This document shows, piece after piece, positions 8,290 through 61,275 of a stretch of DNA of 64,000 nucleotides. Both the position numbers and the translations under genes were made by a program. The notes under the pieces are model-generated. The model searched no databases and was not told where the DNA came from. It worked only from the letters and a program-made list of their open reading frames with translations. The DNA comes from Candidatus Zhuqueibacterota bacterium (GTDB taxonomy: Bacteria; Zhuqueibacterota; Zhuqueibacteria; Residuimicrobiales; Residuimicrobiaceae), in the NCBI GenBank assembly GCA_963169875.1, contig CAUJEL010000075.1, positions 17,899 through 81,898 on the forward strand, given 5' to 3'. The first letter of the stretch is position 1. Each line of letters opens with the position of its first letter.

Positions 8290-8291
8290 CT

Positions 8292-11939: not shown

Positions 11940-12038
11940 GTCATGAATTGATCGGGGTATTCCTGATGGACCTGGATTTTGTAAACGATTCAGGGCTGAT
12001 GGCAGCGTGCAAAATCTTTACCGCGGCAGGGGTGCATT

Positions 12039-12677: not shown

Positions 12678-12942
12678 CTTGTACTACCCTCCGTGATGAT
12701 CCGGATGTTTTCTCCAATGGCACACTGTCGATTCTGATGCATAAAAATGATAATTCCCGGGCAAATCTGCAATAGTTATTTTCAGTTAAACGGGTTGCGC
12801 CGGATTACCAATGGATCAAATCAGACCATCGGCCTGTTACTGTCGATCGCCCTGACGGCGTCTGTTCTCAGCAGCAGTACCTGTTTCATCACGGTCGAAT
12901 TTCCCCCATTGCATGGCAGCCGAAATATTACTATAATTAATC

Positions 12943-44512: not shown

Positions 44513-47026
44513 TCAATCCACATAATCGGTTTCCAAATCCAGGGTAGCATAGGTTAATTGGGTCACGGGATCAAAGGCGCGCACCTGAAACGCGCCGTGA
44601 TAGTCTTCCTCCATGCGCAGGGAGATGCGCACGGCTTGTCCGCTCTGCAAGGTGATCCAGTTGGTGTCCGGATTGATGTATTCACTGGCAGCGGCTTCGC
44701 CGACCTGGCGCTGGCCAGCGAAGGCTTCCAGTTGGAACGTCGCTTCACCGCCAAACAGGGAATCACTAAAGATGGAGACTTCAATCATGGGCCGTCGCGT
44801 GGTGATCTTGCGGGAAGTGCCCTTGCGATACTGCAGGGCGATCTCCAGGCGTGGCTTTTCCTCGGCTTTTTTAGTGTCCAGTGAAATCACCAGAACCGGC
44901 AGCAGGGCTTCCTGCAGGGAGAGGCCCCCATGATAGTAGGGTTTTCCCTTTGAAAACGCGGCAAAGGTTTTGGGCACGGCATAGGTCTTGAACGTCCCGC
45001 GTATGCCCGCCTCTTGCGGTGAGAAAGCGGCGACGCCTGCATTGCCGGAGCCCGTGCCTAGCAGAAAGCGCTCCTTGGTGACCGTCCATTCGCCCAGCGG
45101 CTTGGCCGCCACATCTCCCGCGGCCTGCTCGTGCAGCAGAATAAAACCATGATCCGTGACCACGACAGCTTGATCGAATTTATGCTGTTTGACGACATGG
45201 ATCGCTGCGATGAGCTTGCGCAAAAGCAGGGAGATGAATTGCCGCGCCTCGAACGGGCTCATGGTGCCCATGTCGTCAATGTCGGTGGTTTTGATGATCC
45301 ACAGCTGTTTGTGGGGTTCCACTTTGAGGCGGTGGCCTGCCAACAGATCATTCAGATCATTCATCAGACAGCGGTCGCCGTAGATGCTTTGCAGGTATGC
45401 AAACCGATCCGCCGGTGTCCTGATCATGCGGCCGTCGATGCTCGGAATGATGGCGCCCTTTTCAATGGAGATCTCCATTTTGGTCTGAGCGAAGGGCAGC
45501 AGGCTCGCCATGCCCACGGCGGTGATGGTGGGCAATTGGGCACATGCGGATTCCAGGGTGATTTGATATCGGCCCGACAGTTCGTTTTCGAGTTCGGCAG
45601 CCAGTTCATAACGCAGGGCATCCACCATAAAAAAGGCGGTTCGTTTGTTTTCTGACAAGAGCGGGGCGACGATCTTGTCAAATACCTCGCTGTTGCGCAA
45701 GCGGCCGCTGGCGGGCCAGCCCTCTTTCTCGACCGCAGCGATGAAAAGGGACTGCAGCCATTCGGAAGTTTTGGCATAGTTTTGCCGCGCCTGCTGGATC
45801 ACCCCCTCCAGCAAGAGGAGGTCGCCATAGACTTCGATGACAGCCGCTTCCATGTTGCGATAGGCGCGGTCGACAATCCGGAAGCGTGAAATATAAAAGT
45901 AGATCAGCGCATTGGCATCGGGGCGGTTTTTTTGCAGTTCAGGTTCGAGATCATTTGTCAGCGTCAACAACTGCAGCGCCCGTTCCGCAAGGATCCAGAG
46001 CTGTTGCCGTTCGGGGAGATGGCGCACCCATAGCGAACCGCGCCGGTGTGTTATGATCTCTTCGCAAGTTTCAAAGGCCCCAGTGGCGACCGCCTCGCAA
46101 AAGCTATGCAAAAAGGTGCGTTCTTCAAAGGCAAAGGTATCGCGATGACCCAGATTTTTGTACGCCGCCAAGTGCTGTTCCAGCCGCAGCGCGGTGGCCG
46201 TTTCCTCGGCGCGCTGCATGTAGAGCATTTGATGCCGCTCGCTGCCGCGCAAATCTTCACAGACGCGAAAGATGAGGGATTGGGCCGCTTCGTTGGCCCG
46301 GGGGACTTGCTGCAATCCTGTTGGCAGCGCTTCTGGCAGGTCAAAGGCAAATTCACTGAACAGGGTAAAACGCCACAATTCCCGGGCTATTTCATCATAG
46401 CCCCCATCTGCGGGCGTGAAGGAGAACGTGGCAGTACAGAAAGATTTGTATTCGTCGCGCCATCCGGCATCCCGGGTCAATCGCTGCGCCTGTTGCGCAT
46501 CCGGGGAGAGCAGCGCGATGAGAATTTCAGCAGATGATTCGACCTTGAGAAGGCTTTTGATCTTGGGCCAATTTGTGCTGCCTTTGATCAGTTGATTGAT
46601 GGTTGCATAGTCCGGTACTCCTTGTTGAAACAGCTTTTCGAATGGTCCGCGCAGTTCCGGCGCCGCCTGCAGGCACAGGCCAAAAAGCGATTCGCTGTCG
46701 GATTCCGGGAATTCGCCGCCGCCCAGAGCGAAAATTTGGTAGGGATTCTGTTGTTTCTGCTGTTCTGAAACAGGTCTTGGCGCTGGTAAATAGATGATCA
46801 TTCTGTCTTGCTCGTGGTCAGTCTGACCCATCCTGCACCAGAGCGAGAGGGCTTGTTCGCGGCCAGCAATCGTGGATGTGGAGCCGTCGATAAAATGGGT
46901 ATGATCATTGATCAGTCCGGCGGCAATTTCATTGTAGCGGTTGGCGGGATCGTAGATCACCAGCACGGAAGATCTCTGCAACCGTTGTTCAAGGTAATGC
47001 GCGATATAGGTTTCTATTCTCTTCAT
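44513..47026 (-). CDS. pglZ: BREX phosphatase-like protein PglZ (type A)
   Basis: 837 aa, usual length for PglZ. The alkaline-phosphatase-superfamily domain is in the second half: TAFFMVDALRYELAAEL, LPTITAVGMASLLPFA, AVVVTDHGFILL and YYHGGLSLQEALLPVL carry the metal-binding Asp/His residues. The N-terminus (SVLVIYDPANRYNEI) is typical as well. PglZ is an essential BREX core protein that associates with the methyltransferase and helper ATPases. It is separated from the rest of the core by two toxin-antitoxin insertions, so it must be transcribed by read-through or from a promoter in the abiE region. Confidence 0.93.
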   Translation of the reverse strand: MKRIETYIAHYLEQRLQRSSVLVIYDPANRYNEIAAGLINDHTHFIDGSTSTIAGREQALSLWCRMGQTDHEQDRMIIYLPAPRPVSEQQKQQNPYQIFALGGGEFPESDSESLFGLCLQAAPELRGPFEKLFQQGVPDYATINQLIKGSTNWPKIKSLLKVESSAEILIALLSPDAQQAQRLTRDAGWRDEYKSFCTATFSFTPADGGYDEIARELWRFTLFSEFAFDLPEALPTGLQQVPRANEAAQSLIFRVCEDLRGSERHQMLYMQRAEETATALRLEQHLAAYKNLGHRDTFAFEERTFLHSFCEAVATGAFETCEEIITHRRGSLWVRHLPERQQLWILAERALQLLTLTNDLEPELQKNRPDANALIYFYISRFRIVDRAYRNMEAAVIEVYGDLLLLEGVIQQARQNYAKTSEWLQSLFIAAVEKEGWPASGRLRNSEVFDKIVAPLLSENKRTAFFMVDALRYELAAELENELSGRYQITLESACAQLPTITAVGMASLLPFAQTKMEISIEKGAIIPSIDGRMIRTPADRFAYLQSIYGDRCLMNDLNDLLAGHRLKVEPHKQLWIIKTTDIDDMGTMSPFEARQFISLLLRKLIAAIHVVKQHKFDQAVVVTDHGFILLHEQAAGDVAAKPLGEWTVTKERFLLGTGSGNAGVAAFSPQEAGIRGTFKTYAVPKTFAAFSKGKPYYHGGLSLQEALLPVLVISLDTKKAEEKPRLEIALQYRKGTSRKITTRRPMIEVSIFSDSLFGGEATFQLEAFAGQRQVGEAAASEYINPDTNWITLQSGQAVRISLRMEEDYHGAFQVRAFDPVTQLTYATLDLETDYVD

Positions 47027-47143: not shown

Positions 47144-47272
47144 TCACAATAACCTGGAGATCAGACGCGAGGAAACCAGCGCACGGGAAATAATCAAATC
47201 CTGCTCGATTTGTTCATTGCTGTTCCAGGGCGCCCGGGCGCGCCAGGCGGTGATATCTGCGCGCGGGATCAC
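47144..47272 (-). pseudogene. Truncated abiEii toxin remnant
   Basis: A GTG start overlaps the abiEi stop (GTGA). The frame reads VIPRADITAWRARAPWNSNE and QIEQDLIISRALV, which matches the N-terminus of the AbiEii nucleotidyltransferase toxin, then diverges after about 33 codons and stops at 42 codons. AbiEii is normally about 300 aa with the catalytic motifs downstream, so the toxin is lost. The remaining 117 bases before pglZ contain no further remnant. Confidence 0.75.
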
Positions 47273-48078
47273 GACTCAGCCTCGCCACTATGGTTTTCAA
47301 TGATCATCCAGCGGTTCGCAGAGGAAAACCCAGTTTTGATTTTGTTGGGCTCCATTGGAAAACGATGACGAATGCGCATCTGTAACCGGCCGTGGATAGC
47401 ATCTGCCAGATCCCGTTTTCCAAGAATATTTTCGAGAATATAACCGAGCCGCTGCCACGATGCCAGCGCCGATTTTTCGATTGCGAGGTCAGCCAGAAGC
47501 TGTGGATTGAGCCCTTCGGCCAATTCTTCAAGGACGGAGATACAACGGACCAGTCCACCGAGACGCTCATGATAATAGACCAGATCATAGGCTGTCAGTT
47601 CAGGGCTTGAGAGGCGCACCGTACCCGTGTCGGTCTTTTTTTGTATAATACCCTTTTCAGGAAAATCGCTTTTTACAAAAAAATTGATCTGGATGCCTTT
47701 TTTTTTCAAGCTTCGTTTGGCGGGTTTTGGAATGACGATGAAAAATTCTTGCGGCTGCTGATGCGCTGCGCCGTGCATGGCTGCAGCGCTCAACAGCCCG
47801 ACATAGTACGGTTTGTTCAGATGGGACATATAATCGTCCAGAAACAGCAGTGGCGGCATTATCCCTCTGGCAGAATATTCGGGAGGCACGATGAGGTAGA
47901 ATTCGCGTTGCAGCGCCACCAGACGGCCTTTGCGGATCAGCCGATGCAGCGACTTTTTCAGCGCCAACTCGGACTGCTCCAGAGTCTGCGTAACCTCCGG
48001 CCAGGCAAACGTATACCGGCCCATGGATTGCAGCCGCTCGATGTACTCTGACAAATAATTGTACATTTTAGGTGGCAT
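47269..48078 (-). CDS. abiEi: AbiEi-family antitoxin (type IV), orphaned
   Basis: 269 aa. An N-terminal winged helix (FAWPEVTQTLEQSELALKKSLHRLIRKGRLVALQREFYLIVPPEY) is followed by the AbiEi antitoxin domain (PPLLFLDDYMSHLNKPYYVGLLSAAAMHGA, SSPELTAYDLVYYHERLGG). In AbiE systems this protein represses its own operon and blocks the AbiEii toxin. Here only a 42-codon toxin stub remains downstream, so the gene may persist as a regulator or as an anti-toxin to an AbiEii elsewhere. A perfect 21-bp palindrome overlaps its promoter. Confidence 0.9.
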   Translation of the reverse strand: MPPKMYNYLSEYIERLQSMGRYTFAWPEVTQTLEQSELALKKSLHRLIRKGRLVALQREFYLIVPPEYSARGIMPPLLFLDDYMSHLNKPYYVGLLSAAAMHGAAHQQPQEFFIVIPKPAKRSLKKKGIQINFFVKSDFPEKGIIQKKTDTGTVRLSSPELTAYDLVYYHERLGGLVRCISVLEELAEGLNPQLLADLAIEKSALASWQRLGYILENILGKRDLADAIHGRLQMRIRHRFPMEPNKIKTGFSSANRWMIIENHSGEAES

Positions 48079-48103
48079 GCCCCTATTGTGTTTTCGTTTT
48101 CTT

Positions 48104-48132
48104 AAAATACCACTTTGTGGTATTTATTGCAA
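48104..48132 (-). promoter_or_regulatory. abiEi promoter with overlapping palindromic operator
   Basis: On the minus strand TTGCAA (-35) and TATTTT (-10) are 17 bases apart. The palindrome AAATACCAC-TTT-GTGGTATTT (48105-48125) fills the spacer and the -10, as expected for AbiEi autorepression. The start codon is 26 bases downstream of the -10. Confidence 0.7.
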
Positions 48133-48192
48133 ACAAAAACTTGATATAGATGAATATTCCTCACACTGTGGATAAGGTGGGCCACTCCTGAG

Positions 48193-49380
48193 TTATTTTT
48201 GAAAAAGCTTGCGCACTTGTTTGTTGCCTACCAAATCCGAGAGTATGCGGTAATTTCTTCTTTCCCAACGGATGCGTCCGGCGATGATGGCTGGATGAAT
48301 CCGCAAGCGGTCAGCCAGTTTGTTGATTTGATCGCGATCGTCCTTGTGCTCGAATAAATCCCAGATTCTGGCGGGGAGCAGTGCTTCCCGCGCCAGTTCA
48401 TCCGCGGCGCGTTCCTTGTCATCTCCTTCGGCATCCAGATCATCGATAATGCAGTCAACATCATCCTTGTCGATATGCAGCGCTACGTGCGCCAGCTCGT
48501 GGGCGAGGGTGAACCAAAAATTATCCAGGCGATCGTAGCGCAGCGTCAACGCAATGACCGGAGCGCCTTGACGGCTTTTCATCACAGCGCCGTCCAGGTG
48601 CGTTTTGGCGAGATGTTCAAGCACAATGAAATGGATTCCTGCCTTGGCGAGGTATTCCTGCACCAGACAGGGGCCTTCCTGGAGATAACTCAATTTGGCG
48701 ATATCTGTGATGTAGGCCTTGGTGATTTGGCCTTTATGGTATGGCGGCAATTCCGCCTGGCGATCCGCTTCTTTAAGCACCTGGGCTTTCCACGCTATCA
48801 ATGCATGGGCATCGATGGTGCCGTTGGTGCGCACGATCTGACGGCAAAGTGCGCCCTGCAGGACCTGGGTATCAACACCGCGGAAAAATTCTGTCAGCAG
48901 TTCTTCGCCACGGTCCGCGGCCTCTTTTGCGTTGTCTTGGAAGCCCTTCAGCCAGCCGCGGGCTGCCATCTCGCGGATGGGAAAGCGTTCCCAGTTGAGA
49001 TCAGCAATGTCCTGGTCCGGTTCCTCTTCGCTGATCAATACATCAAGGGGGATTTGCAGCGTCTGATGCAGTTTGCGGATCATTTTAAGAGTCAGCGGCT
49101 GCTTGCCGCTGAGCACCTCGGACACTTTGCTTTTGCTGCCGATGAGTGGAATAAGATCTTTTTGTTTCAAGCCCTGTTGATCCATGCGGAATCGGATAGC
49201 GGCCAGCGGATCGGGTTTGTGCAGCGGGAATTCCTGCTCTTCCCAGGTTTCGATGAGAAAGGTCAGCAGCTCCAGTTGATCGCCTTCCGCGCTGCCTGGA
49301 TCTGGATCGAGCACAACGAGACGCCTGGCTTCGTTTAACGCCGCCTCGTAATCCTGATTATTTTTGATGAGCTTTATCAT
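48193..49380 (-). CDS. higA: HigA-like antitoxin fused to an ImmA/IrrE metallopeptidase domain
   Basis: 395 aa, three times the length of a plain HigA. Residues 1 to about 120 form the HigA region with a helix-turn-helix (LKQKDLIPLIGSKSKVSEVLSGKQPL). The C-terminal half is an M78/ImmA-IrrE domain with an intact zinc motif, FTLAHELAHVALH (HExxH), and a downstream acidic ligand region (KERAADELAREALLP). Such peptidases cleave repressors or antitoxins, so it might be self-limiting under stress (inference). It follows higB by 17 bases, the usual toxin-first order of higBA. Confidence 0.9.
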   Translation of the reverse strand: MIKLIKNNQDYEAALNEARRLVVLDPDPGSAEGDQLELLTFLIETWEEQEFPLHKPDPLAAIRFRMDQQGLKQKDLIPLIGSKSKVSEVLSGKQPLTLKMIRKLHQTLQIPLDVLISEEEPDQDIADLNWERFPIREMAARGWLKGFQDNAKEAADRGEELLTEFFRGVDTQVLQGALCRQIVRTNGTIDAHALIAWKAQVLKEADRQAELPPYHKGQITKAYITDIAKLSYLQEGPCLVQEYLAKAGIHFIVLEHLAKTHLDGAVMKSRQGAPVIALTLRYDRLDNFWFTLAHELAHVALHIDKDDVDCIIDDLDAEGDDKERAADELAREALLPARIWDLFEHKDDRDQINKLADRLRIHPAIIAGRIRWERRNYRILSDLVGNKQVRKLFQK

Positions 49381-49397
49381 GAGTTTAATAGATTGAT

Positions 49398-49679
49398 CTA
49401 TTTCTTTTTAGAGTATTCAGCATGGGTTTCAATGCGCTCAATGTAGACGGTTTTGACTTTATAGGCGATGCGCACGGTCAAACGGTAGTGATTGCTTTTG
49501 ATGTTGAAAATGACGGTATTGTCCGCCAGGAAACTGGCTTTGGGATATCGTTGTTTGATGTCGTGTGGCGTTTGCCAGTCGGCCTGTTGCGCTTCATGAT
49601 GCCATGCCAGCAATGCATCCCTGGCGTCGGCATGCTGTTTGATGAATGCGTCGATCGTTTTGCGCGAGATGACATGCAT
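49398..49679 (-). CDS. higB: HigB-type mRNA interferase toxin
   Basis: 93 aa, RelE-like fold: ISRKTIDAFIKQHADARDALLAWHHEAQQADW, then DNTVIFNIKSNHYRLTVRIAYKVKTVYIERIETHAEY, the signature of the HigB_toxin family that cleaves ribosome-bound mRNA. Full length. It leads the higBA pair and has its own promoter and operator, so it is expressed independently of the BREX genes upstream. Confidence 0.93.
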   Translation of the reverse strand: MHVISRKTIDAFIKQHADARDALLAWHHEAQQADWQTPHDIKQRYPKASFLADNTVIFNIKSNHYRLTVRIAYKVKTVYIERIETHAEYSKKK

Positions 49680-49814: not shown

Positions 49815-52070
49815 TCAGCTATCTTCTTCGTCTTCCTCCTGCGGTTTGGCGCGCTTGCGCCGGGGGGCTTTGCTGTCGTCGTACAGCGCTTCGAGATCGT
49901 GGGCGATGGCCAGCGACTTGTCGGTGACGCATTTGCCGCGGACGCGATCCGGCCAGATGGCATAGGCGAGATGGGCCCAGTCATAATCGCCGGCCTTGAG
50001 CTTGTCCCAGCACGCCATGAGGTCTTTGCGCCATTTGGGCAGCCGGAAGAGTTTCCACAGCGGCGCCGCGGTGATGAGCACGCCGTCATTGAGGTCCGGT
50101 TTGTAGGGCAGTTGGGCGACGCGCAGCAGTTCTTCGCGGAAGGCTTTGAGTTCGAGGAGAAAGTCCTCCAGGGATTCGATCCTGGAGAGGTCGGTTTTGG
50201 AGGTGTCCGACAACCCTGGTTTATCCGACATCTGTTTGCGCAGGCGGTCGAGGTCTTTGCTCACTTCTTCGATGCGCGGATTGAGATAATCGTTGACGCA
50301 GGTATAGAGGAACTGGTCATTGAGGCGGTGGTAATAGATCCACAGGGTATAGTTGCCGTTTTCGCTGGAGAGCGGCCAGTAGATGGGCGCCTGGCGGCGG
50401 CTTTTGGAGTAGCGTTTGAGATGGTCCTGGAAGAATCCGGAGGGTTTGCGGAAATAGTCGCGCAGGGATTTGACCTCGAGTATTTCGCAGGCCTCCTGTT
50501 CGATGGCGGCGGCGCGTTCGCCCCAGAGCACATCCAGCACTTCGCGGACGCGGCGAATGATGTCTTCCTGATGGGTCTGGCCTTCCGGGGCAAATGCGTC
50601 ATCGACGAGGATGCCCTCCCAGGAGATGCGGATGGGATATTCTTCATCTTTGATGGTGGGATTTTTGACGCTGCCCTCGGGCGGCAGGGAATTGGCATCC
50701 GGCCGGGCACGCAGCCATTCTTCGCTGACGATGTTGTTTGGCGTTGCCGGTAAACCAATGACATTTAGCAACATTCCGACAGGGCAAGCAGGCAACGGGG
50801 AAAATGGTGACGGAGTTGATGTATTTAATGTATGATTGAGTGATAGACGTAATTCAAATCGGCCAAGGGAGAGGCCGAAACACCATGACATGAAATCAGT
50901 AATTAATGATTGTTGATTAGGTGTCGTTTTTTCCGAGAACTCGGGTTCATCATAAGCATCTAATCCTTGTTCTTCATTTCTCTTTGCTGATAAATTTGCA
51001 TAATTCAATGCGTTACATTCTTCTTTTGTAAAATCATATAACTTGAAAGCGGCTTCATCAATTTCGTCTTGGATTTGATTGATTTCAGACTGCAATTTCC
51101 TGAAATTTGCTTCAATTTCCAAACCGCGTTCGGTAAAGTTTAATCTAGTAACCTGACATAACATGGGAATAATGAAAGCATGTGATGTTTCGTTTGCCGT
51201 ATCAATTGAGCGTTTAACAGTCCATAACCTAAACATTTTTTGTCCCAGTTGACTACCTTCATTAATTTTAATTGGATAAGGAACAGCTCCTATTACGCCT
51301 ACCTGATACGAGCGCGCTATACTTCCAGCGCTGACCATCATTTCTAAGAAGACATTAAAAACCTTTGTATTCATTAGTCCACAAATATCCTGAACAACTT
51401 CTTTCTCAAAAAAGCCAGCTGATCCTTTTACAGAGAAAACGCCGGCAGCCGGCCAGGGCTTAACGGAAAGCATACTACTTGTCCGATCTCCCCAAGTCAA
51501 TCCAGGGAGAAAATAGTATTCCACATTTTGCGGTCTAGAGTTAAGTTTTCCTGTTGCCAGGTCAATGAAATTGCGTATTTCATCACCTTCATTTCCCCAA
51601 TTAACAAGGAGATGAATATCGATATAGTAAGGTGAATATTCTCCTCCTTTTGCAAATGGAGCCCAAATTTTCCCTTCGCAAGTTCGTCTGCAACACCAAG
51701 TCTGGAATTCTGTTATCTCGTCTTTAGTCCAATCTTCTAATTTTTGGGGTGCCTCATAATTGCCATCCAGAATTCGCTCCGCCGGAACTTCCCACCATGC
51801 TCGGACAAAACGAAAGTCATCTCCGGTCTGTAATCCAACTTTTACAGTTCTTTCTTGACCCTCAAATGGGGGAAGATCAGCGAACAGATTACGAATACGT
51901 TCACTGACCCAATAACAGAAAGGTGTTAGTGGAACTTTCTCGAATGAATTAGGATTTACGATATATATATCATCGATGTTCCCGCCACCATGTAAACCTT
52001 TGATTTGTTCGGCTAGCTTTGGCCCCTTATCCTCATGTTGAAGTAGGCGGATGAATAATGTGTTGTTCAT
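49815..52070 (-). CDS. pglX: BREX methyltransferase PglX, C-terminal half (target recognition)
   Basis: 751 aa from the ATG at 52070, which overlaps the OLD stop as ATGA; the longer track start lies inside the OLD gene. It begins exactly where PglX continues after its catalytic part: LFIRLLQHEDKGPKLAEQIK, VPLTPFCYWVSERIRNLFAD, TGDDFRFVRAWWEVPAE, WAPFAKGGEYSPYY, PGLTWGDRTSSMLSVKP. It contains no SAM-binding motif of its own. The first roughly 440 residues are encoded in AT-rich DNA; from about 50755 the DNA turns GC-rich. It must assemble with the N-terminal half to make an active adenine methyltransferase (inference). Confidence 0.92.
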   Translation of the reverse strand: MNNTLFIRLLQHEDKGPKLAEQIKGLHGGGNIDDIYIVNPNSFEKVPLTPFCYWVSERIRNLFADLPPFEGQERTVKVGLQTGDDFRFVRAWWEVPAERILDGNYEAPQKLEDWTKDEITEFQTWCCRRTCEGKIWAPFAKGGEYSPYYIDIHLLVNWGNEGDEIRNFIDLATGKLNSRPQNVEYYFLPGLTWGDRTSSMLSVKPWPAAGVFSVKGSAGFFEKEVVQDICGLMNTKVFNVFLEMMVSAGSIARSYQVGVIGAVPYPIKINEGSQLGQKMFRLWTVKRSIDTANETSHAFIIPMLCQVTRLNFTERGLEIEANFRKLQSEINQIQDEIDEAAFKLYDFTKEECNALNYANLSAKRNEEQGLDAYDEPEFSEKTTPNQQSLITDFMSWCFGLSLGRFELRLSLNHTLNTSTPSPFSPLPACPVGMLLNVIGLPATPNNIVSEEWLRARPDANSLPPEGSVKNPTIKDEEYPIRISWEGILVDDAFAPEGQTHQEDIIRRVREVLDVLWGERAAAIEQEACEILEVKSLRDYFRKPSGFFQDHLKRYSKSRRQAPIYWPLSSENGNYTLWIYYHRLNDQFLYTCVNDYLNPRIEEVSKDLDRLRKQMSDKPGLSDTSKTDLSRIESLEDFLLELKAFREELLRVAQLPYKPDLNDGVLITAAPLWKLFRLPKWRKDLMACWDKLKAGDYDWAHLAYAIWPDRVRGKCVTDKSLAIAHDLEALYDDSKAPRRKRAKPQEEDEEDS

Positions 52071-53749
52071 TTGCCTGCCCCCGAATTTCCACGAAGCCAT
52101 AATATTATTTCCATTATTTTTCCAGGAATTTCTGTTTCTGTATCTGCCGCTATGAGCCTGGCACGTGCAGGCTTTCCCACATTCGGATATTTCTGGCAAA
52201 GTAATTGATACTGAGTATCTCCGCCTACTGATGTTTTTAGTTCATCCTCATATTTTTTTATGAAACGCCAGACACAGTTGCCATTATTACTAAAATTATC
52301 CAACTCGTCATTATAATGTGCCTCTTCCGTTTTGTTATTTATGTCTGATGAATCTTCGTCGTAAACTATGCCAAAAGGTATGTTGAAAGATTGAGCCATC
52401 AGACCGAATTCGGCCAAGTTTCTCTTGCCACCGACTTCTATGACAGAAATTCCTGCCTTATCCAGATCAAAACCTAATCTTCGAGCATATTCTGGGATCG
52501 CTAATTTTTCTGTATCTCCTTCAACAAAGAGAATTCGTGAAGCAAAAAATAATTCGTTGCGTTCTGGATCAAGCTCTTTCAATAATTTCTCTTTTCGTCT
52601 TTCATCATTGGGAAGAGTGGAAAATTTCACAAAAGTTCCACTATCGTTTTTTCTCACCAATCCCACTTGATCATAGTCGGGAATACCTACGAAGTGGGGA
52701 GAATGGGTAGTGTAGATGACTTGGTTGGTTCTGCCGATTTCTTTGAGGGTTTTGTAAAGAGAACGTTGCATTTGTGGATGCAGAAACATTTCAGGCTCTT
52801 CTATTAACAAGATCGCTCCCTGTTTGCGTTGTACCTCAAAAGCCTGAAGAATGGCCAAAACAAGCGCGTTCTGTATGCCCTCACCTAGTTCGGTCGCATT
52901 AATTGTAAAGCAGGCCTCTTTAACACGCAATTCAAGTGATTTGTAAAAATCTAATGTGTCGAATGGCGAAAAGAAGAGATCCAGTTTGTCGCTATCCAAC
53001 ATGGGATCCAATCCAAGTTGCCTGAGAGCGTTTTCTTTTATTGATTTTTCGAGTTGTATAAATTTATCCGTTTTCAGCAGCTCCATGGCTTTTGACATCA
53101 ATTCTTGGAAATGCTTTCTTCTCGATGTGGAAATTTCTTGGCCATTACAATCTTGAACTGTTATTATCTGCGAAGAATCATTAAAATCCTCGTTAATATC
53201 TTCAAAGAGCTGTCTTAAAAGTGAATATCGTGCTGAAGGAAGCTGTTCTTTTAGAGATCTGTTTGTACCAATATAAATCAGTGGGACACTTTCGCGTATT
53301 TCGGCTGGTATACCAATTAAAGGCTCATATTCATTCTTTTGGCCTTTTTTAGGTGCTTTTTTAGGTACCATTGGTGGCTTACCATTAGGAACGATACACT
53401 GCTGTTGCAATCTTGGTTGCCCTTTTTTCTCACCGACTTTGTAACGCGTGTACTCAAATGATAATGTTGGAACGTCTACAATATCAGACTCTTTAAATTT
53501 TCTATATCCAATTGGGGGGTCAATGGTAATTGAAATGCTGATATCCAATTCAGGATCACGGGCATGTATATCATCAAGGTCAAAAGTACTGACAGCTAAC
53601 CAATCTTTGCCTAAAACTTTCTGTATGGCTTTGAGAATATTGCTTTTTCCTGCATTATTCGGTCCAACTAGTGCACAGACTTGAGGAATGTCGAAATCTA
53701 GTTGTTTTATGGATCTAAAATTTTTGATCGTTATATGTTTTATCTTCAT
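52067..53749 (-). CDS. OLD-family nuclease (ABC-type ATPase plus TOPRIM) inserted between the PglX halves
   Basis: 560 aa from MKIKHITIKNFRSI. ATPase: Walker A VGPNNAGKS (28-36), signature-like ELGEGIQNALVLAI, Walker B ILLIEEPE (313-320), and IYTTHSPHFV. TOPRIM: LFVEGDTEKLAIPEYA (Glu410) and IVYDEDSSD (Asp464, Asp466). Proteins of this type (OLD, GajA) are DNA nucleases, several of them anti-phage. No UvrD-like gajB partner is present. The ATG overlaps the PglX(N) stop as ATGA (53746-53749) and its own stop overlaps the PglX(C) ATG the same way (52067-52070), so all three are translated as one unit. The gene is AT-rich, unlike brxC. Confidence 0.92.
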   Translation of the reverse strand: MKIKHITIKNFRSIKQLDFDIPQVCALVGPNNAGKSNILKAIQKVLGKDWLAVSTFDLDDIHARDPELDISISITIDPPIGYRKFKESDIVDVPTLSFEYTRYKVGEKKGQPRLQQQCIVPNGKPPMVPKKAPKKGQKNEYEPLIGIPAEIRESVPLIYIGTNRSLKEQLPSARYSLLRQLFEDINEDFNDSSQIITVQDCNGQEISTSRRKHFQELMSKAMELLKTDKFIQLEKSIKENALRQLGLDPMLDSDKLDLFFSPFDTLDFYKSLELRVKEACFTINATELGEGIQNALVLAILQAFEVQRKQGAILLIEEPEMFLHPQMQRSLYKTLKEIGRTNQVIYTTHSPHFVGIPDYDQVGLVRKNDSGTFVKFSTLPNDERRKEKLLKELDPERNELFFASRILFVEGDTEKLAIPEYARRLGFDLDKAGISVIEVGGKRNLAEFGLMAQSFNIPFGIVYDEDSSDINNKTEEAHYNDELDNFSNNGNCVWRFIKKYEDELKTSVGGDTQYQLLCQKYPNVGKPARARLIAADTETEIPGKIMEIILWLRGNSGAGK

Positions 53750-55812
53750 GCTTGAGCCTCTAGGCAATATGCAGCAGCCTCAACCATCGCGGCATCCATT
53801 ACTCCATAGCCCAGATCAACGAAGACTACAGGCTTAGATTCTTTTAAGAGTATTTCTTCTCGCCATGCCGTGAAGGAGGAGAGAAAAAAACCAGTACGTG
53901 AAGTGATTGCTCCAAGCATACATCTAGAATTAAGAATACCTACGCCTCGTTCAACAAATGCTGCATATAGATCATTTTTTGTACGGGGGAAAGATCTTTC
54001 TATTAAATTTTTAGAATTTTTTCCTGCCTCCCCAAACGGCGGATTCATCAACACCACATCGTAGCGCTTGCGGCAGAGATCGATAAAGGCGAAGCCACGT
54101 GCCGCATCCTCAGCAAACATTCGGCGCGATAAAGCGTGTTCGCCCCCCGCGCGCTCGGCATACCCGGACAAGGCCTGGAGAATCCGCTCCTCCACCGTGT
54201 CCCAAAAATCAGCCTCGGAAATGGCGGAGACATCAAACAATCCCAATTCGAGCTGCCGCTCCTGCGCCAGTTCGTCCATCTCGCTCCGGGTGAACAGCAT
54301 CTCGTTGCCTTTTTTGTCCCGGGCGCGCTCATACATGCGCTGCCACTGCTCTTTGGCCTGGACAATGGCCTCCTGAATCTCCTCCTCGATCTTTAACAAC
54401 GACCCCGCTTCCCCGGCAAGCTGCATGCGGTCAAAGATTTTTTCCACGATCTGACCCAACAACGGCGGCTGCAGCGCGGCGGCGAACTCTTTCAACATCC
54501 CCTTTTCGCCGGGCATGGGTTCGGCACAGACAATGTGACTTCTGAGAATACGCGGCCGCTGCGTTGGTTTGACGTTCTGCTCTTTCCAGGCGCGCTGGCT
54601 GCGCAGCCACAACGCCAGGGCCGCGATCTGCACCGCCCGCGGATCGATGTCGATGCCGTGGAGGTTATGACGCAGCACCAGCTCCGGGATGGCGAGGATC
54701 AGCGCTTCGCGCTGCGGATAATCCGCGGCCAGGGTACGGCCCGTCGCCTCGCTGGCGGGCGCGGCCTCCACCTCCCACGCCTCCTCGTAAATGGTCTGCA
54801 ACAGATCGAAGGCATAGAGCAGAAAATGGCCGCTGCCGCAGGCGGGATCGAGTATCTTCAAATCGCGCGGATCTTTGCCGGGGCGAAATGCGATATTATG
54901 GGGCTGGCGCAGCAGCTCCTCCTGACTCATCTCATCCTGATTCTCCGGCGGCTGTGGCGCCGCTTCGCCGGGCTGCATAAAGACTTCGTGCGGCCGGCGC
55001 ACCAGGTAGCGGCATTGTTCGCTCAGCCGGGTACTGCCCTGGCGCATCTCGTACCAGATGCGTCCCAGGGTATTGTCAGTGAGAAACTCGACCACATAGC
55101 GCGGTGTGAAAAACTGATTGCGCACCGCCAGCTCGCGGCTGTTGCGCGGCGCCGCCGAGGCCTTGCGCATGGCCTGACGCTCTTCCTTGCTGTTAAAATA
55201 TTGATAGATCCAGCCAATGGTTTCATCCTCGGCCCAGACGCCGCCGAGATCGGCATGATTGAGGAGTTGAAACAATTCCTCGAGCGCGGCTTCGCGCGGA
55301 AACAGCAAACCGAAAGGAGAATAGCGTTCGAACAGAAGGCCGAGATCCACCGAGATTTCATCAAACAGCGCCGCGAGAAAGGCGCGGTAGCGCTGATAGG
55401 TGTCGCCCAGCGCCGACCCGGCGACCTGCAGATAGACCTGGAATCCCCGCGACTGCATGCCCTGACGCACGCACTCTTGCACCAGCCCGCGCTCCTCGCA
55501 CATGCGCAGGGCGGCAAACCGGTTCAACACCGTGAACGCCTGTTCGCGCAGCAGACGATCGATGGCCGCCTTGAGCGGATGTTTTTCATCGTGCAAGCCG
55601 CTGGTGAGGTGATCGATGCGCTCGCGCAGCAGCGCGGCCACGCCGCGTTGTTCGTCGTCGAGATGAACCAGCCGCTCCAGGGCCATGATCTGGCCGTCGG
55701 GCTGAATGCCATAACGTTCCTGCAGTTGAATGGCAAATTCATCGCTGAGGAGGCGGCGGCAGTCGCTCACCAGCCGCGCCAGCCGGTTTCGGGTCTGATT
55801 GTCAAATGCCAT
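53746..55812 (-). CDS. pglX: BREX methyltransferase PglX, N-terminal half (SAM binding and catalysis)
   Basis: 688 aa. It has the full N-terminal part of PglX: helical lead region, RNQFFTPRYVVEFLTDNTLG, SAM-binding motif I DPACGSGHF (322-330), HGIDIDPRAVQIAALALWLR, and catalytic motif NPPFG (590-594, gamma-class adenine N6 type). It ends at VDLGYGVMDAAMVEAAAYCL plus four residues, the point where intact PglX proteins run on into the recognition half. The stop overlaps the OLD start as ATGA. DNA is GC-rich up to about 54045 (just past NPPFG) and AT-rich after. Two bases separate it from brxC. Confidence 0.94.
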   Translation of the reverse strand: MAFDNQTRNRLARLVSDCRRLLSDEFAIQLQERYGIQPDGQIMALERLVHLDDEQRGVAALLRERIDHLTSGLHDEKHPLKAAIDRLLREQAFTVLNRFAALRMCEERGLVQECVRQGMQSRGFQVYLQVAGSALGDTYQRYRAFLAALFDEISVDLGLLFERYSPFGLLFPREAALEELFQLLNHADLGGVWAEDETIGWIYQYFNSKEERQAMRKASAAPRNSRELAVRNQFFTPRYVVEFLTDNTLGRIWYEMRQGSTRLSEQCRYLVRRPHEVFMQPGEAAPQPPENQDEMSQEELLRQPHNIAFRPGKDPRDLKILDPACGSGHFLLYAFDLLQTIYEEAWEVEAAPASEATGRTLAADYPQREALILAIPELVLRHNLHGIDIDPRAVQIAALALWLRSQRAWKEQNVKPTQRPRILRSHIVCAEPMPGEKGMLKEFAAALQPPLLGQIVEKIFDRMQLAGEAGSLLKIEEEIQEAIVQAKEQWQRMYERARDKKGNEMLFTRSEMDELAQERQLELGLFDVSAISEADFWDTVEERILQALSGYAERAGGEHALSRRMFAEDAARGFAFIDLCRKRYDVVLMNPPFGEAGKNSKNLIERSFPRTKNDLYAAFVERGVGILNSRCMLGAITSRTGFFLSSFTAWREEILLKESKPVVFVDLGYGVMDAAMVEAAAYCLEAQA

Positions 55813-55814
55813 GG

Positions 55815-58800
55815 TTATCGCCAGATGATTCTGATTTTTGTGCCCTGCGCCAATTCCTGTTTTATGCTCTCCAACTCTTTGAGAATCTGCTCCAGATCAT
55901 CCACGCTGTTCAGCAGACTCGGCAAGTTCACATGCCATTGCTTGATTTCAGCTTCGCCATTGGGTTCGGACTGGTTTTTTTGCGCCAACTGCAGGATTTC
56001 GCGCTCGACCGCGGTGATGGTCTCCGAGAGAATATAGCGGTTGCTGATGAGATGCTGCAGGCCCTCCAACGTGGCGGGCGCCTCCACTTCAAGACGATCG
56101 AGCTGATCCGACAGTCGCGCGGCCTCCTCCTGGCCCAGCTCGATCCACTCGGGCAGGCGCTGCAGCCGCTGCTTTTGTTCCTCGAGATAGGTGCGCTGCC
56201 CGGCAAGCAACCGTTCCACCGCCGCGGCGATCTGCTGGCCGAGTTCGGCGATATGCTGGCGTATCTGCGGCGCATGATCATAGAAATCACTGCGGGTGAT
56301 GTATTCGCCGAGCTGCTCGCGCACCGCATGACTGCCGCTGACCAGTTCGGCGGGAATGCCGCTGTTGGGCAGGGCGCGGATGGCGCCATCGATGGCCGCG
56401 GCGTGGCGGATGAGCGCATCCATGCCGTTCTTGAACGCCTTTTTCACCTCGCGGGCCCAGCACAGGTCGTCATAAAACGCACAGGTTTCGCCGCCGAGCC
56501 GCAGGGCGGCATCGGAGGCATCCCCCTTGACGATCTCGGCCAGATTGTTCAGCAGGCTCTCGGCGCGATCCACGCCCGGCAGTGCAAGCAGTTGCAGTTG
56601 ACTGACCAGTCCGGCGTACTCGCGCTGCAGGTCGGGAAACCTGCGCATCACACAGCGGCTGATATCCTCCTGCAGCGGCAGGACGTCATCGCCGGTCAGG
56701 TCGAGGAGGCGTTCGCGGGCACGGCTGAGCACTTCCAGACTGATTTTATCCTCGCTGAGGAAAATGCCGATCTTTTTGAAATTGATGGTGTTTTTCAGGT
56801 TATTGATGGCGGTTTCACCGCGAACGGTCACATTCTCGCCGCCGATGCGCAGTTTGATCAGTCCGGCGGTGAGCATGGCGGCGATGAGATAGCGGCTGGT
56901 ATCCTTGGACCAGCCATAGGGGGCGGCGTAAAAATCATCAAGGAACTTGCCGCCATCGACCTGGCCGTGCTGCTCGAGATAGTCCTTGATGGAGACAATG
57001 GCCTTGTGATGCACATCGATCACAGTGGTTGCGCCGCTTTTTTTGATCAGGCTGAGCGGATCGTCCTGGGAAGCGATGCGGTCGAGCCGCTCGGTCTTGA
57101 GAAAGCGCTCTGCGGTCGCCGTGTCGGCGCTGGTGGAGGCTTCGGCGAATTTGTTAAAGACCTGTTCGGCCGCTTCATCGAGAAAATCCCGCAGGGCTTC
57201 AGTGACCTGGGTTTCCGCCGCACCGGCCGGCCGCATCTGGCCGCGGAAGATAAAGGAACCCGCCAGCAGGGCGCGACGCAACCGCACCTGGATCTCTTTT
57301 TCCAGTTGATCAGCGCGCTGGTTTTGCGCGCGCAGATACTCTTCGACATCCTTGTCCGTGGCTTTGTTGCGATTGCGGGCATAGATGTCGCGGCAACGCA
57401 GCACCTCGATGGCCAGGGTTTCGATCTCCGCATCCTTGTGCCCGAGGAAAAAGATGACGTTGTGACTGAGACGCTGCTGCGATTCGAGCAGGCGCTCCTG
57501 GCGCCGGCCCTCGTACTCTTTTTCCGCGACCAGATCGATGTGGGTCTGAATCTCTTCCCGATCGCCCAGCAGCGAGACCGGCATGGCGCCGATATAGACC
57601 TTGATGCCGGTGCTGACCATGCGCGATTGCTGCAGCTTTACGCTGGGCGCCGGTGTGAACAGCTCCCGCAGCAGTGCGTTTTGCAGGCTGTTGATCTCCA
57701 TCGTTTTTGGAAAATGCCGTTCACGTTCCTGATCGAGATCGCGCACTGCCTCGCTCATGAAGCGCAGATTGTTGTCCACTTCATTGAGCGGCACGGATTT
57801 TTCTCTGAGCAAATCTTCCACCGCGGCCCTGACCTCTTCCGTCAGGCTGGGCGATTCGACCGCGGGATGCATCAGCGCCGCCACGTTTTCACGGCTGACC
57901 GGGAAATCATCGAGAATCTGCAGCACCGCGATGGATTTGGCGGTGCGGGTTTGAATCGAATCTTCCCCGAAAATGTGAACGATTTTGTTGACGCCGTTGA
58001 CGATATGGGGGAAGGGCTTTTCGATGTCCTTGCACAGTGCGTCGTAAAAGACCACGGTATTGGCCAGCCGGCCCACGGGCTCATCGGCGAGCAGGGCGCC
58101 GCCGTCGCGGACATGGCTGGTATCGACGAGGACGTCCTGCAGCACCTTGATGGCCGAGCGCAGGCCGATGCCGCCGCGCGTCTTGGCCAACCGGGACAGC
58201 AGCTGCAGGAGAATCTCAAAGTGGACCGGCAGGAAGGGATAGAATTTGCAGAAAGCACTCTTGTCGAGATCGGATTTGTAATAGCGGGTGTTGACGAGCT
58301 GGGTGGCATGGCGCAGTTGCGGGCCATGCTGATCGAACAGCCGTCCCAGCAGGGCTTCGCCGTCCTTGGATTTGCCGAGCAGTCGGGTATAGCAGATTTC
58401 CTTGATGTCGTTGGCCTCGAGGTCGATGCTGACCGGGAAGCGGTCTTTCAGCTTGAAGAGTTTGGCGGTATTGAACGCAGCCTTGGGGTCATCTTCGGTC
58501 AGCGTCTGCTGCGCCGTGGCGACGATCCAGGCATGGCCGCGACCGATGGCTTTGAGGTTCTTTGCCAGGCCGTCGAGGTTGAGGATGAGCTCGTCGCGCG
58601 AGGCGACGTACTGGCCGACTTCATCGACGACAAAAATGACATTCTCACGTCCGGAGCGGCGGCGGATCAGGTCCAGCATCTCCCTGATGCGGTCGTTTTC
58701 GCGGATTTTTTCCTCAATTTTTATATCGTTGAATGTTTTGGTGTCCGGAAAGAGGTCCGGATAGATTTCACAGGCCACTTTTGAAGCGAGGAGTTTCATC

Positions 58801-59414
58801 ACCAGCGGCTGGTTTTTGATCTCATCCCAGCTTTTGCCATTGGCGAGCCCGGCGATGCGTTTTTTAAAGGCATCGAGCTTGTCGTCGCGTTCGAGCATGA
58901 ATTCCAGATAAGCGATTTTTTCGTCGCGGGAATAGCCCGCCCACTGCATGACTTTGGCATAGAGGACCGAAGAGATTTCGGCCATGGTGGCGCCGGAGAG
59001 TTGTTCGGTGGCCAGATCGAGCATGATGACCACAGAGGGATAGCGTTTGGCCATGGCGGCGAAGCGGGCGCGCAGGGGCGCTGATTTGAACTGGTTCTGC
59101 AGCCAGCCCAGAAAAGGCCGGCCTTCGATGGTCTTGTCCGGATCGAGGGCAAATCCGAGGTACTTGGTGAACGAGCTTTTGCCGGAGCCATAGAAACCGG
59201 AGACCCAGACGCCGACCTCGGGGTTTTGGCCGCTGGACATGCCGTATTCGAGTTGATCGAGCAGGCGGTCGAAATGGGCTTCGATGCTGGCGGTGGCCAC
59301 GTATTCCTGAATCTCCTGTTTGAGGAGATCCTCATTGCTGGTTTCGTAGGTGATGACTTTTTCGATGCGGCGGTCGATGGGCCTGGTGGCGTCGAAAATT
59401 TCACGGATCAGCAT
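55815..59414 (-). CDS. brxC: BREX P-loop ATPase BrxC/PglY
   Basis: 1199 aa, expected length for BrxC. Walker A is GFYGSGKS (73-80) right after EVGVWVSG; a Walker B region VIFVVDEVGQYVASRDELIL follows at about 260. The remainder is long helical segments with several coiled-coil stretches (ERLLAGQRTYLEEQKQRLQR). BrxC is a large ATPase essential for BREX host methylation and phage exclusion. It lies 8 bases after brxB and 2 before pglX(N), so it is mid-operon. Confidence 0.95.
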   Translation of the reverse strand: MLIREIFDATRPIDRRIEKVITYETSNEDLLKQEIQEYVATASIEAHFDRLLDQLEYGMSSGQNPEVGVWVSGFYGSGKSSFTKYLGFALDPDKTIEGRPFLGWLQNQFKSAPLRARFAAMAKRYPSVVIMLDLATEQLSGATMAEISSVLYAKVMQWAGYSRDEKIAYLEFMLERDDKLDAFKKRIAGLANGKSWDEIKNQPLVMKLLASKVACEIYPDLFPDTKTFNDIKIEEKIRENDRIREMLDLIRRRSGRENVIFVVDEVGQYVASRDELILNLDGLAKNLKAIGRGHAWIVATAQQTLTEDDPKAAFNTAKLFKLKDRFPVSIDLEANDIKEICYTRLLGKSKDGEALLGRLFDQHGPQLRHATQLVNTRYYKSDLDKSAFCKFYPFLPVHFEILLQLLSRLAKTRGGIGLRSAIKVLQDVLVDTSHVRDGGALLADEPVGRLANTVVFYDALCKDIEKPFPHIVNGVNKIVHIFGEDSIQTRTAKSIAVLQILDDFPVSRENVAALMHPAVESPSLTEEVRAAVEDLLREKSVPLNEVDNNLRFMSEAVRDLDQERERHFPKTMEINSLQNALLRELFTPAPSVKLQQSRMVSTGIKVYIGAMPVSLLGDREEIQTHIDLVAEKEYEGRRQERLLESQQRLSHNVIFFLGHKDAEIETLAIEVLRCRDIYARNRNKATDKDVEEYLRAQNQRADQLEKEIQVRLRRALLAGSFIFRGQMRPAGAAETQVTEALRDFLDEAAEQVFNKFAEASTSADTATAERFLKTERLDRIASQDDPLSLIKKSGATTVIDVHHKAIVSIKDYLEQHGQVDGGKFLDDFYAAPYGWSKDTSRYLIAAMLTAGLIKLRIGGENVTVRGETAINNLKNTINFKKIGIFLSEDKISLEVLSRARERLLDLTGDDVLPLQEDISRCVMRRFPDLQREYAGLVSQLQLLALPGVDRAESLLNNLAEIVKGDASDAALRLGGETCAFYDDLCWAREVKKAFKNGMDALIRHAAAIDGAIRALPNSGIPAELVSGSHAVREQLGEYITRSDFYDHAPQIRQHIAELGQQIAAAVERLLAGQRTYLEEQKQRLQRLPEWIELGQEEAARLSDQLDRLEVEAPATLEGLQHLISNRYILSETITAVEREILQLAQKNQSEPNGEAEIKQWHVNLPSLLNSVDDLEQILKELESIKQELAQGTKIRIIWR

Positions 59415-59422
59415 AAGCTGTT

Positions 59423-59998
59423 TTATCCTCCAATATGCGTCGAGCGATAATTGCCGTCTTCCGGATAGATGCCGAGAAAACGCAGGGTAGTGCGTCCGGA
59501 ACGGATTCCCGGGTAAAGGATGATCGTGGGCACGCGGAATTTTCCCTGCAGCCGCTGTTCCAGCGAACCGACGCGAATGTAGGGATGCAGCGCCTCGAGA
59601 TCAGTGATGATGAGCAAATCCTTGTGTTCCGGTGTGAGAGCAGCCAGTTTTTGTTCGAGTTTGTTTTTCAGGTCGTCGTGGTTGATCAGAGCCTCGGCGA
59701 TGGTCTGGTTGATGGGCGCAAAATCGAGCGGCGCTTCTTTTTCGCTCTCGAGCCATATGTCGCGCAGCTCGTGCTGCTGTAAAATCTCGTGAATGGCCGC
59801 GGCCATGGAAAACGTATGCACCTGATAGTTGTCCAGCCTGAGTTTAGCCTGCCAGGATTTCAGGCGTCTTTTCACTTCCAGCATCTCTTCGGGCCGGAAG
59901 ATGAGATAATAGACCGGATCGTCGCTGGTCTGATTCAGGCGCTGACCCTGGCGTAAATAGGTGCGCAGTTCGTCAAAATTCTGCTGCAGCGATGGCAT
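59423..59998 (-). CDS. brxB: BREX protein BrxB (DUF1788)
   Basis: 191 aa. Typical features: DPVYYLIFRPEEMLEVKRRL near the N-terminus, LLIITDLEALHPYIRVGSLEQRLQGK and VPTIILYPGIRSGRTTLRFLGIYPEDGNYRS at the C-terminus. BrxB is a small essential BREX core protein of unknown activity. Its start lies inside the end of brxA (26-base overlap). Confidence 0.93.
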   Translation of the reverse strand: MPSLQQNFDELRTYLRQGQRLNQTSDDPVYYLIFRPEEMLEVKRRLKSWQAKLRLDNYQVHTFSMAAAIHEILQQHELRDIWLESEKEAPLDFAPINQTIAEALINHDDLKNKLEQKLAALTPEHKDLLIITDLEALHPYIRVGSLEQRLQGKFRVPTIILYPGIRSGRTTLRFLGIYPEDGNYRSTHIGG

Positions 59999-60770
59999 CC
60001 AGAGCCTCCTCCATGGTGGAAAAATTCCAGGTTATGCGCAGCAAATCGCCGGCGAATTGTACAATAAAAAAACGGGTCGGCAGTCGCTGCAGCGTCTGCA
60101 CGACTTCGAAGGGCTGTAATCCAAAGAGCTGCCAGTCCGGGTGGTGCATGATCTGGTGGTCATTGAGGCCGGAGAAGTGCAGCTCGTGGGCGAGAAAAAG
60201 GGCCGTGAGGGTGGTGATATTGAACGGGCGGAGCTTGCGATCGCTGGTGCGGCCTTTTTCGGCCAGATCAAAATCGGCCAGGCAGGTCATGAGGCCGCGG
60301 GCAATGCGGTCTCTGACCTCGGCGGACCAGGGTGTTGGAATCTCTCCGGTTTGGGTGGCCAGGTCGATGAACTCCAGGGCCTGTTCCTTGATGATCGCGC
60401 TGCGTCCGGCCTGAAAGGAGGTCCAGTAGACGCGGGCGATGAAATCGCGCAGAATCGCGTTGGCGCGGCAGGTGTAAATCAGGAACAGTTGATTGAGCGC
60501 GGCGGTGGATAGGCCGGCCTGCAGCAGAATTTTAAGATAGCGCGCCGGCCGGGCAGCCTCCTTGAAATAGCGCGGGGTGATGTGATTGGAGATGATATCC
60601 CGGGTGCGTTGCGCCGTGGCCTTGCGCAGCAGTCCTTGCTGCACGGCGAGAGTGGTCAGTTCTGCCGTGGAGAGGTCCGGAGTCCAGGCGCGCAGCAGCG
60701 CGATGGTCTCTTCCTGGAGACCGTGGCCTTTGGCGAACGCCACGTTGTATTTGACAGGCGGTTCACTCAT
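59973..60770 (-). CDS. brxA: BREX protein BrxA (DUF1819)
   Basis: 265 aa. It matches the BrxA family: helical, with KEAARPARYLKILLQAGLST, IYTCRANAILRDFIARVYW, LFLAHELHFSGLNDHQIMHHPDW. BrxA binds DNA in type 1 systems. It overlaps brxE by 8 bases and brxB by 26 bases, indicating tight translational coupling. Confidence 0.92.
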   Translation of the reverse strand: MSEPPVKYNVAFAKGHGLQEETIALLRAWTPDLSTAELTTLAVQQGLLRKATAQRTRDIISNHITPRYFKEAARPARYLKILLQAGLSTAALNQLFLIYTCRANAILRDFIARVYWTSFQAGRSAIIKEQALEFIDLATQTGEIPTPWSAEVRDRIARGLMTCLADFDLAEKGRTSDRKLRPFNITTLTALFLAHELHFSGLNDHQIMHHPDWQLFGLQPFEVVQTLQRLPTRFFIVQFAGDLLRITWNFSTMEEALDAIAAAEF

Positions 60771-61275
60771 GGCTGCAATAGGGAAAGCAGGGTGTGTTGG
60801 TCAAGAAAGCCTGATGGTAAAGGGCCGCCAATTGTTCGAGGAGGGTAGGCTCCTGGATGTCGCGAATGGATCCCAGCAACACGGCGCCGCCGGCCGCAGT
60901 GGAATCAAGGGCAGCATGGGCTTTGAGCCAACCCAGGGCGGTTTCGCGGTCTTTGATCAGATCAGCGGAAAGAGCGGATGCCGGGTCAAGGATGGCGTGG
61001 TGGACGTCCTCTTCGAGCGCAGCGGGGAGGCGGAAGAGGTGGTAGACGCTGCTTTTGCCGATGCGTTGGTCGTGGAGGCGGCGGGCGGCTTCGGCAGTAG
61101 AGTGAATAGCCGCGGAAAAGGCGGTCCTGGGAAAATTGATCTGCAGGAATTGCAGCCCGATGGAGCTGAGAAAATTGCTATCCCACCAGGCGAGTTGTTC
61201 TTTTTCGCCGAGGTATCCGACCAGGGTGCGGAGGGCGGCCAGTTGATGGATGGCGGTGGTTGATTCGCTGGGCAT
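60763..61275 (-). CDS. brxE: BrxE-family protein, first gene of the BREX operon
   Basis: 170 aa. The family pattern is clear: LRTLVGYLGEKEQLAWWDSN, FLSSIGLQFLQINFPRTAF, AARRLHDQRIGKSSVYHLFRLP. BrxE was described mainly for type 6 BREX and has no known activity. AAGGA lies 7 bases before the ATG. It starts the operon; a palindrome and a truncated brxE relative lie just upstream. Confidence 0.82.
   Translation of the reverse strand: MPSESTTAIHQLAALRTLVGYLGEKEQLAWWDSNFLSSIGLQFLQINFPRTAFSAAIHSTAEAARRLHDQRIGKSSVYHLFRLPAALEEDVHHAILDPASALSADLIKDRETALGWLKAHAALDSTAAGGAVLLGSIRDIQEPTLLEQLAALYHQAFLTNTPCFPYCSHE

Follow-up and report, generated by a model that had tools for sequence, protein, structure and literature searches.

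The window (the whole stretch of 64,000 nucleotides analyzed) carries a complete BREX operon, brxE-A-B-C-pglX-pglZ-brxL, on its minus strand from 61275 to 42452. The operon opens with a brxE-family gene (60763..61275, 170 aa; NF033447, 147 bits), followed by brxA (59973..60770, 265 aa), brxB (59423..59998, 191 aa), and brxC (55815..59414, 1199 aa), and it closes with pglZ (44513..47026, 837 aa) and brxL (42452..44509, 685 aa). The six core genes of BREX type 1 (brxA, brxB, brxC, pglX, pglZ, and brxL) are all found in this one operon. However, PglX of BREX type 1 is a single chain with an N-terminal domain (NTD), a methylase domain, a target-recognition domain (TRD), and a C-terminal domain (CTD), whereas every one of these parts is present here on two polypeptides, and we therefore call the locus a variant of BREX type 1. 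The interval between pglX and pglZ forms a second cargo slot, with a PD-Lambda-2_A-like toxin-type gene (49398..49679, 93 aa), a PD-Lambda-2_B-like gene with HTH and ImmA/IrrE domains (48193..49380, 395 aa), and an AbiEi-like gene (47269..48078, 269 aa), all on the minus strand. In Thioflavicoccus, this second slot (window 47269-49679) holds a UPF0175/DUF3368 pair instead. The genome of the window also encodes three more single-chain PglX/type IIG-like methylases, all distant (G000:C171:16115-17332, C185:15035-15322, and C41:13790-14014).

The first of the two pglX genes, pglX(N) (53746..55812, minus strand, 688 aa), encodes a helical N-terminal domain and the N6-adenine methylase domain up to its last beta-hairpin. 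In profile searches, it matches Eco57I methylase, the PADLOC PglX model PDLC02527 (978 bits), and NF033452, and its product ends with the residues ...VEAAAYCLEAQA. The second, pglX(C) (49815..52070, minus strand, 751 aa), begins with the residues MNNTLFIRLLQHEDKG and encodes the last strand and a helix of the methylase fold, the target-recognition domain, a spacer, and the conserved C-terminal domain. The initial annotation had proposed that these halves are adjacent in intact PglX. Indeed, positions 1-659 of PDLC02527 are covered by the N part and positions 665-1311 by the C part, which leaves about 5 residues between the halves in the intact protein, and the NCBIfam BREX-1 PglX model is likewise divided over the two. 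Between them lies, as also proposed, a full gene for an OLD-family ATPase and TOPRIM nuclease (52067..53749, minus strand, 560 aa). Its start overlaps the pglX(N) stop in one ATGA (53746..53749, minus strand), and its stop overlaps the pglX(C) start in another (52067..52070, minus strand); the same two overlaps are found in L011, L086, and L087 (see below). All three reading frames are open, and the motifs noted earlier in both proteins are intact, with motif I DPACGSGHF and motif IV NPPFG (54045-54031) in pglX(N), and Walker A and TOPRIM in OLD.

The OLD protein contains AAA_15 (7e-36) and OLD-like_TOPRIM (4e-19) domains, and its nearest solved structure is 6p74, an OLD-family endonuclease (5e-56), GajA being more distant. 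Its Walker A (GPNNAGKS), IEEPEMFLHP, TOPRIM VEGDTE, and DED motifs are all in place, so that it has the layout of a stand-alone OLD nuclease, an ABC ATPase (Walker A/B) followed by a TOPRIM domain with intact E and DxD-type motifs, and would be expected to be active. Compared with the OLD of L011, the pN is 0.17 while the pS is saturated at 0.92, which indicates purifying selection on OLD. Between the same two loci, the pN of the methylase end beside OLD is 0.166, and that of the backbone is 0.29, well above the value for OLD. An OLD 61% identical to that of the window is found in L123 (5238-9692), outside BREX and alone next to AAA and subtilase genes. It sits downstream of this pair, an AAA ATPase gene and an S8 subtilase gene, which looks IteA/IteS-like by eye. 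Searches of viral contigs for OLD returned one close relative, outside BREX.

Where the chain is broken was examined against solved and modeled structures. PglX of Salmonella (8c45) aligns to the N part up to its residue 607 and to the C part from its residue 647. In E. coli BrxX, a flexible hinge (638-675) links an upper jaw (NTD and methylase) to a lower jaw (TRD and CTD) (PMC11842806). This hinge was ruled out as the site of the break, which the 8c45 alignment and an AlphaFold2 model of the fused homolog L015 (mean pLDDT 83; best PDB matches BrxX/PglX) locate inside the methylase fold, some 30 residues before the hinge. In the L015 model, the break lies in a loop (649-656) between strands 642-648 and 657-662, so that the start of the C protein contributes one strand and one helix to the methylase fold. 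The model of pglX(C) itself has a strand at 4-7 and a helix at 15-27; its quality in the recognition domain is modest (mean pLDDT 69). Judging from these models, the halves would have to co-fold or assemble to give an active PglX, as a two-chain enzyme similar to HsdM and HsdS, and most likely the two proteins do reassemble into a working PglX of this kind. In most split loci, a GGAG-type ribosome-binding motif lies within the last codons of the N part, and ATGA or TGATG comes after it. This arrangement is well suited to translational coupling and accounts for the way in which a split can come about with the expression of its parts in balance.

The N half was used to scan 84,980 genomes, and the best 80 of the 352 matches were taken as loci. 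Viral contigs were searched as well and added further loci, and profile models of both halves were used to call pglX split or fused in the resulting 95 loci, the window included. Because this set consists of the best matches to the window's N half, it is biased, and the figures for splits and cargo are counts, not prevalences. pglX is split at the same position in 28 of the 95 loci (window included) and fused in about 61. The N part ends within 0-5 codons of one model position (15 codons in L063), the C part starts at model position 1-2, and brxC lies upstream of pglX in all 27 of the other split loci. The earlier suggestion that the coupled frames do not reflect a random disruption is borne out by the same break in 27 other loci and by the same OLD with both ATGA overlaps in an unrelated genome (L011); the split is thus not confined to this genome, and the C half is intact. 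A search of 82 genomes of the window's own phylum found no second copy of its PglX family, so there is no in-phylum comparison. In plasmid searches (P0001, Tepidimonas N half, Pseudomonas C half), Thioflavicoccus was the only further split case.

In 18 of the 28 split loci, the slot between the halves is empty, the halves overlapping or almost touching. Genes occupy the slot in seven distinct loci (7-8 cargo-bearing), and in four of these, which are phylogenetically separate, the gene is an OLD. L011, from an Anaerolinea MAG, has an OLD 72% identical to that of the window over 559 aa, with ATGA at both ends. L086 and L087, copies of one region in Tepidimonas fonticaldi, have an OLD of another subfamily, also with ATGA at both ends, and L063 has an OLD 51% identical to that of Tepidimonas, within which the contig stops. 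Two OLD subfamilies (A and B) are therefore present in the slot, each in two backbones. T. fonticaldi is a cultured species, and its operon is complete (brxE-A-B-C-N-OLD-C-pglZ-brxL). A split pglX is also present in the cultured Dyella ginsengisoli LA-4, Pseudomonas oryzagri, and Stutzerimonas urumqiensis. On its contig NZ_VJOO01000006.1, L086/L087 are two identical tandem copies of 20.6 kb, each a BREX with OLD inside pglX, representing either a true duplication or an assembly repeat. Other cargo was found on the complete plasmid of Thioflavicoccus mobilis (L007), where the BREX gene order and the site of the pglX split are unchanged. It consists of a UvrD-type helicase and a DUF2290 protein, which match the PADLOC 'Helicase' (752 bits) and 'DUF2290' models. 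The slot of L016 holds HicA and TumE, and that of L057 a Panacea-type gene; L047 (a Fic/Doc-like gene on the opposite strand) and L010 both run out at contig ends. Backbones at least 76% identical to that of L086 include fused, split, and split alleles with OLD.

Some loci differ in other ways. In L089, L097, and L098, a gap of about 2.8 kb (about 7225-10001) between brxC and the split pglX suggests another accessory slot. In L073, a transposase-type ORF of 515 aa (12071-13618, minus strand) breaks a fused pglX at a site upstream of where other loci are split, a genuine disruption that serves for contrast. L077 (11914-14895) is degenerate: part of its N end is repeated downstream, the gap holds a VapC-like toxin gene, and the C half has lost most of its middle. 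Viral contigs L108 and L109 (about 6361-9774 and 9989-13459) each carry two distant pglX-like genes in tandem, both fused.

The base composition of the split gene, which the initial annotation had not considered, shows how far the foreign segment extends. GC content drops from 61% to 39% at 54024 and rises again to 58.5% at 50814. A model with two breakpoints has a log-likelihood gain of 132, and the largest gain among 20 codon shuffles was 12.5. One of the two switches comes directly after motif IV (NPPFG), the other near residue 419 of the C part. Between them, a low-GC specificity cassette (50814..54024, minus strand) comprises the end of the methylase domain, OLD, the recognition domain, and the spacer. 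OLD thus makes up just the central part of a foreign segment, which takes in the methylase end and the whole recognition domain as well. The same limits were found by comparing L011 with its relatives. Its backbone is 88-100% identical over most of its length to the fused L014 (Synergistota) and L020 (Syntrophobacterales); against L014, identity collapses behind NPPFG and is back (73-93%) at residue 406-421, approximately, of the C part.

The phylogenies also separate the split from the backbone. In a tree of the backbone upstream of motif IV (592 columns), there are 17 changes between split and fused, of which well-supported branches force at least 13, and the grouping of all split loci in one clade is rejected (p 7e-5). 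In contrast, the 93 aa from motif IV to the break require 4 changes, where shuffles need 23, and such a grouping is not rejected (p 0.45). It follows that the split travels with a mobile cassette: it is a property of the specificity cassette, which has been moved among backbones by recombination, with OLD riding inside. The window and L011 group as sisters both in the 93-aa segment (support 91) and in the tree of the recognition domain, whereas the backbone rejects this pairing (p 3e-38). The recognition-domain tree is intermediate, with 10 changes and one clade weakly rejected (p 0.03), and fission may have occurred more than once. Within the cassettes of the window and L011, the first 160 or so residues of the C part are 55-78% identical, and the recognition core behind them only 25-42%. 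As OLD was kept, specificity changed again while OLD stayed.

These observations can be brought together in one scheme, which we consider likely as a whole: a split PglX, an exchangeable specificity cassette, a slot with optional defense modules, and OLD as a separate backup effector. PglX would consist of an HsdM-like polypeptide (N-terminal domain and methylase) and an HsdS-like one (recognition domain and C-terminal domain). The split would be one allelic class of the specificity cassette, which starts at motif IV (NPPFG), ends with the recognition domain, and, as phylogeny, GC content, and breakpoints show, is swapped between PglX backbones by recombination. The gap in the cassette would serve as a cargo slot holding nothing or small defense modules, here OLD, whose translation would be coupled through the ATGA overlaps. 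OLD itself would be a separate effector of the abortive-infection type that benefits from being expressed together with BREX and moves along with every swap of recognition specificity. This form of BREX, with PglX in two chains and a cargo slot in an exchangeable specificity cassette, is real, recurrent, and mosaic, and it is probably functional.

The role of OLD is where readings differ most. An independent backup effector appears to be the most economical, because the slot is often empty, unrelated modules occupy it elsewhere, and the 61%-identical OLD of L123 stands alone. The main rival, possible but clearly doubtful, is a guard: OLD would be kept inactive by the assembled BREX/PglX, or would sense it, and be freed when a phage inhibitor disables the complex, as with PrrC/EcoprrI and PARIS/Ocr. 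It would have the means, being an ABC ATPase with a nuclease domain, like both parts of PARIS combined; PrrC, whose gene lies within a Type IC RM locus, reacts when the RM enzyme encoded there is inhibited (PMC12707154, PMC2610378), and OLD genes recur in the slot with conserved ATGA coupling. However, OLD is absent from most split loci, the other slot genes are unrelated, and a close relative stands alone outside BREX. That OLD is present in 4 of the 7-8 cargo loci, its two subfamilies in two backbones each, could nevertheless reflect a closer functional tie than independent cargo would have. A bolder version, which we regard as unlikely, is that the gap of an HsdM/HsdS-like split PglX is a dedicated effector slot, whose occupants, OLD among them, bind the assembled methylase or keep watch on it, so that each cassette brings its matched nuclease to BREX. 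The initial annotation had proposed a bipartite methylase physically linked to a nuclease that couples modification to cleavage. In this reading, OLD would bind both PglX halves and provide cleavage within one complex. The bipartite PglX is supported, whereas OLD as a physical part of it is not. Gene order is the one positive support for a physical coupling, the ATGA coupling being exact at both ends in the window, L011, and L086. A dedicated subunit would also fit the conservation of OLD, which equals that of the neighboring methylase end (pN 0.172 versus 0.166). Yet the cargo is variable and optional, with 18 split loci empty and unrelated genes in others, L123 has a stand-alone relative, and OLD stayed while the recognition core was exchanged, which together make a dedicated subunit distinctly improbable.

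As for the origin of the split, the linker may be prone to breakage, with repeated independent fissions (a frameshift followed by an ATGA restart behind an in-frame GGAG) and cassette transfer playing a minor part. The ribosome-binding-like GGAG at the N end of most split loci, the stop/start overlaps such as ATGA or TGATG, and the mixture of fused, split, and split alleles with OLD among the close backbones of L086 would all fit, but the 4 changes in the segment adjacent to the break against 17 upstream, and the direct breakpoints between L011 and L014, make this improbable as the main route. Decay, in which the insertion of OLD broke pglX in a degenerating BREX, does have parallels in the insertion within a related pglX (L073) and in degenerate loci (L077). 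It is largely refuted by recurrence and very improbable here, as all frames are open, the same break is seen in 28 loci, the C half is conserved, start codons and ribosome-binding motifs are in place, and OLD is under constraint. A simple insertion of OLD into an intact gene and a pseudogene were both considered and rejected. Sharp GC switches within one gene could also betray an assembly chimera in a MAG-like genome; this is refuted in practice by the independent assembly L011, where N, the same OLD, and C follow one another as in the window, by the similar arrangement in the isolate T. fonticaldi (L086), and by the split pglX with other cargo on the complete plasmid of L007.

From a biological perspective, how BREX blocks phages without clear DNA cutting is an open question, and PglX has been described as one chain with a methylase and a recognition domain. 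With a PglX that nature has already split, a two-subunit system for separating methylation from recognition is at hand. The loci also show how BREX specificity changes in nature, through recombination that has its limits at motif IV and at a conserved motif following the recognition domain. A defense gene is nested here in the most exchanged part of another defense system, which gives accessory effectors a simple route to spread. As empty, OLD-bearing, and fused alleles are found in near relatives, some of them cultured, whether the slot genes act alone or guard the methylase is directly testable.

Finally, the locus can be compared with known systems. With Type 1 BREX of E. coli and Salmonella (PglX/BrxX), it has brxA, brxB, brxC, pglX, pglZ, and brxL in common, and both PglX halves align to the single-chain enzymes 8c45 and 9ewz; it differs in having PglX as two proteins with a gene between them and in its additional brxE-family gene. 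A 2025 EcoSal Plus review describes the BREX TRD as an integral part of the methylase protein, unlike in Type I systems, and the split loci are an exception to this description. As in Type I RM systems, with HsdM and HsdS, methylase and recognition are on separate polypeptides, and specificity is changed by swapping the recognition part. However, a Type I specificity subunit has two TRDs and is accompanied by HsdR, whereas the C part here has one TRD-like region, a BREX-specific C-terminal domain, and the last strand of the methylase fold, matches PglX only, and has no HsdR in its operon. The PADLOC profiles include two of half length, PDLC02526 (640 aa), which ends where the window's N part ends, and PDLC02532 (682 aa), which matches the C part; split genes have thus been swept into the profiles, and we found no comment on it. 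The architecture had been thought to be undescribed, and in the openly accessible papers searched we found neither a PglX in two chains nor a gene lodged within pglX, nor any account of cassettes being exchanged naturally at motif IV.

On the side of the effector, the OLD nucleases (6p74) and GajA of Gabija have the same order of ATPase and TOPRIM and the same motifs as the window's OLD, and no helicase is found among its neighbors, whereas Gabija pairs GajA with an adjacent UvrD-type helicase, GajB. PrrC is a tRNA anticodon nuclease that is not known to interrupt a subunit gene, whereas OLD has a TOPRIM nuclease. PrrC of the EcoprrI locus, and with it RloC, is comparable as an ABC-ATPase nuclease gene embedded in an RM locus (PMC12707154, PMC2610378). 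PARIS (AriA/AriB) similarly brings an OLD-type ABC ATPase and a TOPRIM into a BREX island in Salmonella (PMC11341690). There, pglX encodes a single chain of 1225 aa and the two activities are two genes, an AriA ATPase and a separate AriB TOPRIM (DUF4435), whereas in the window both are fused in one protein encoded inside pglX. OLD-ABC/TOPRIM 'backup effectors' recruited to BREX operons in many taxa are described by Rakesh & Krishnan 2026 (PMC12839542), and the text searched does not mention a split PglX or an OLD inside pglX. OLD/TOPRIM effectors in BREX operons and PARIS in Salmonella BREX are already documented.
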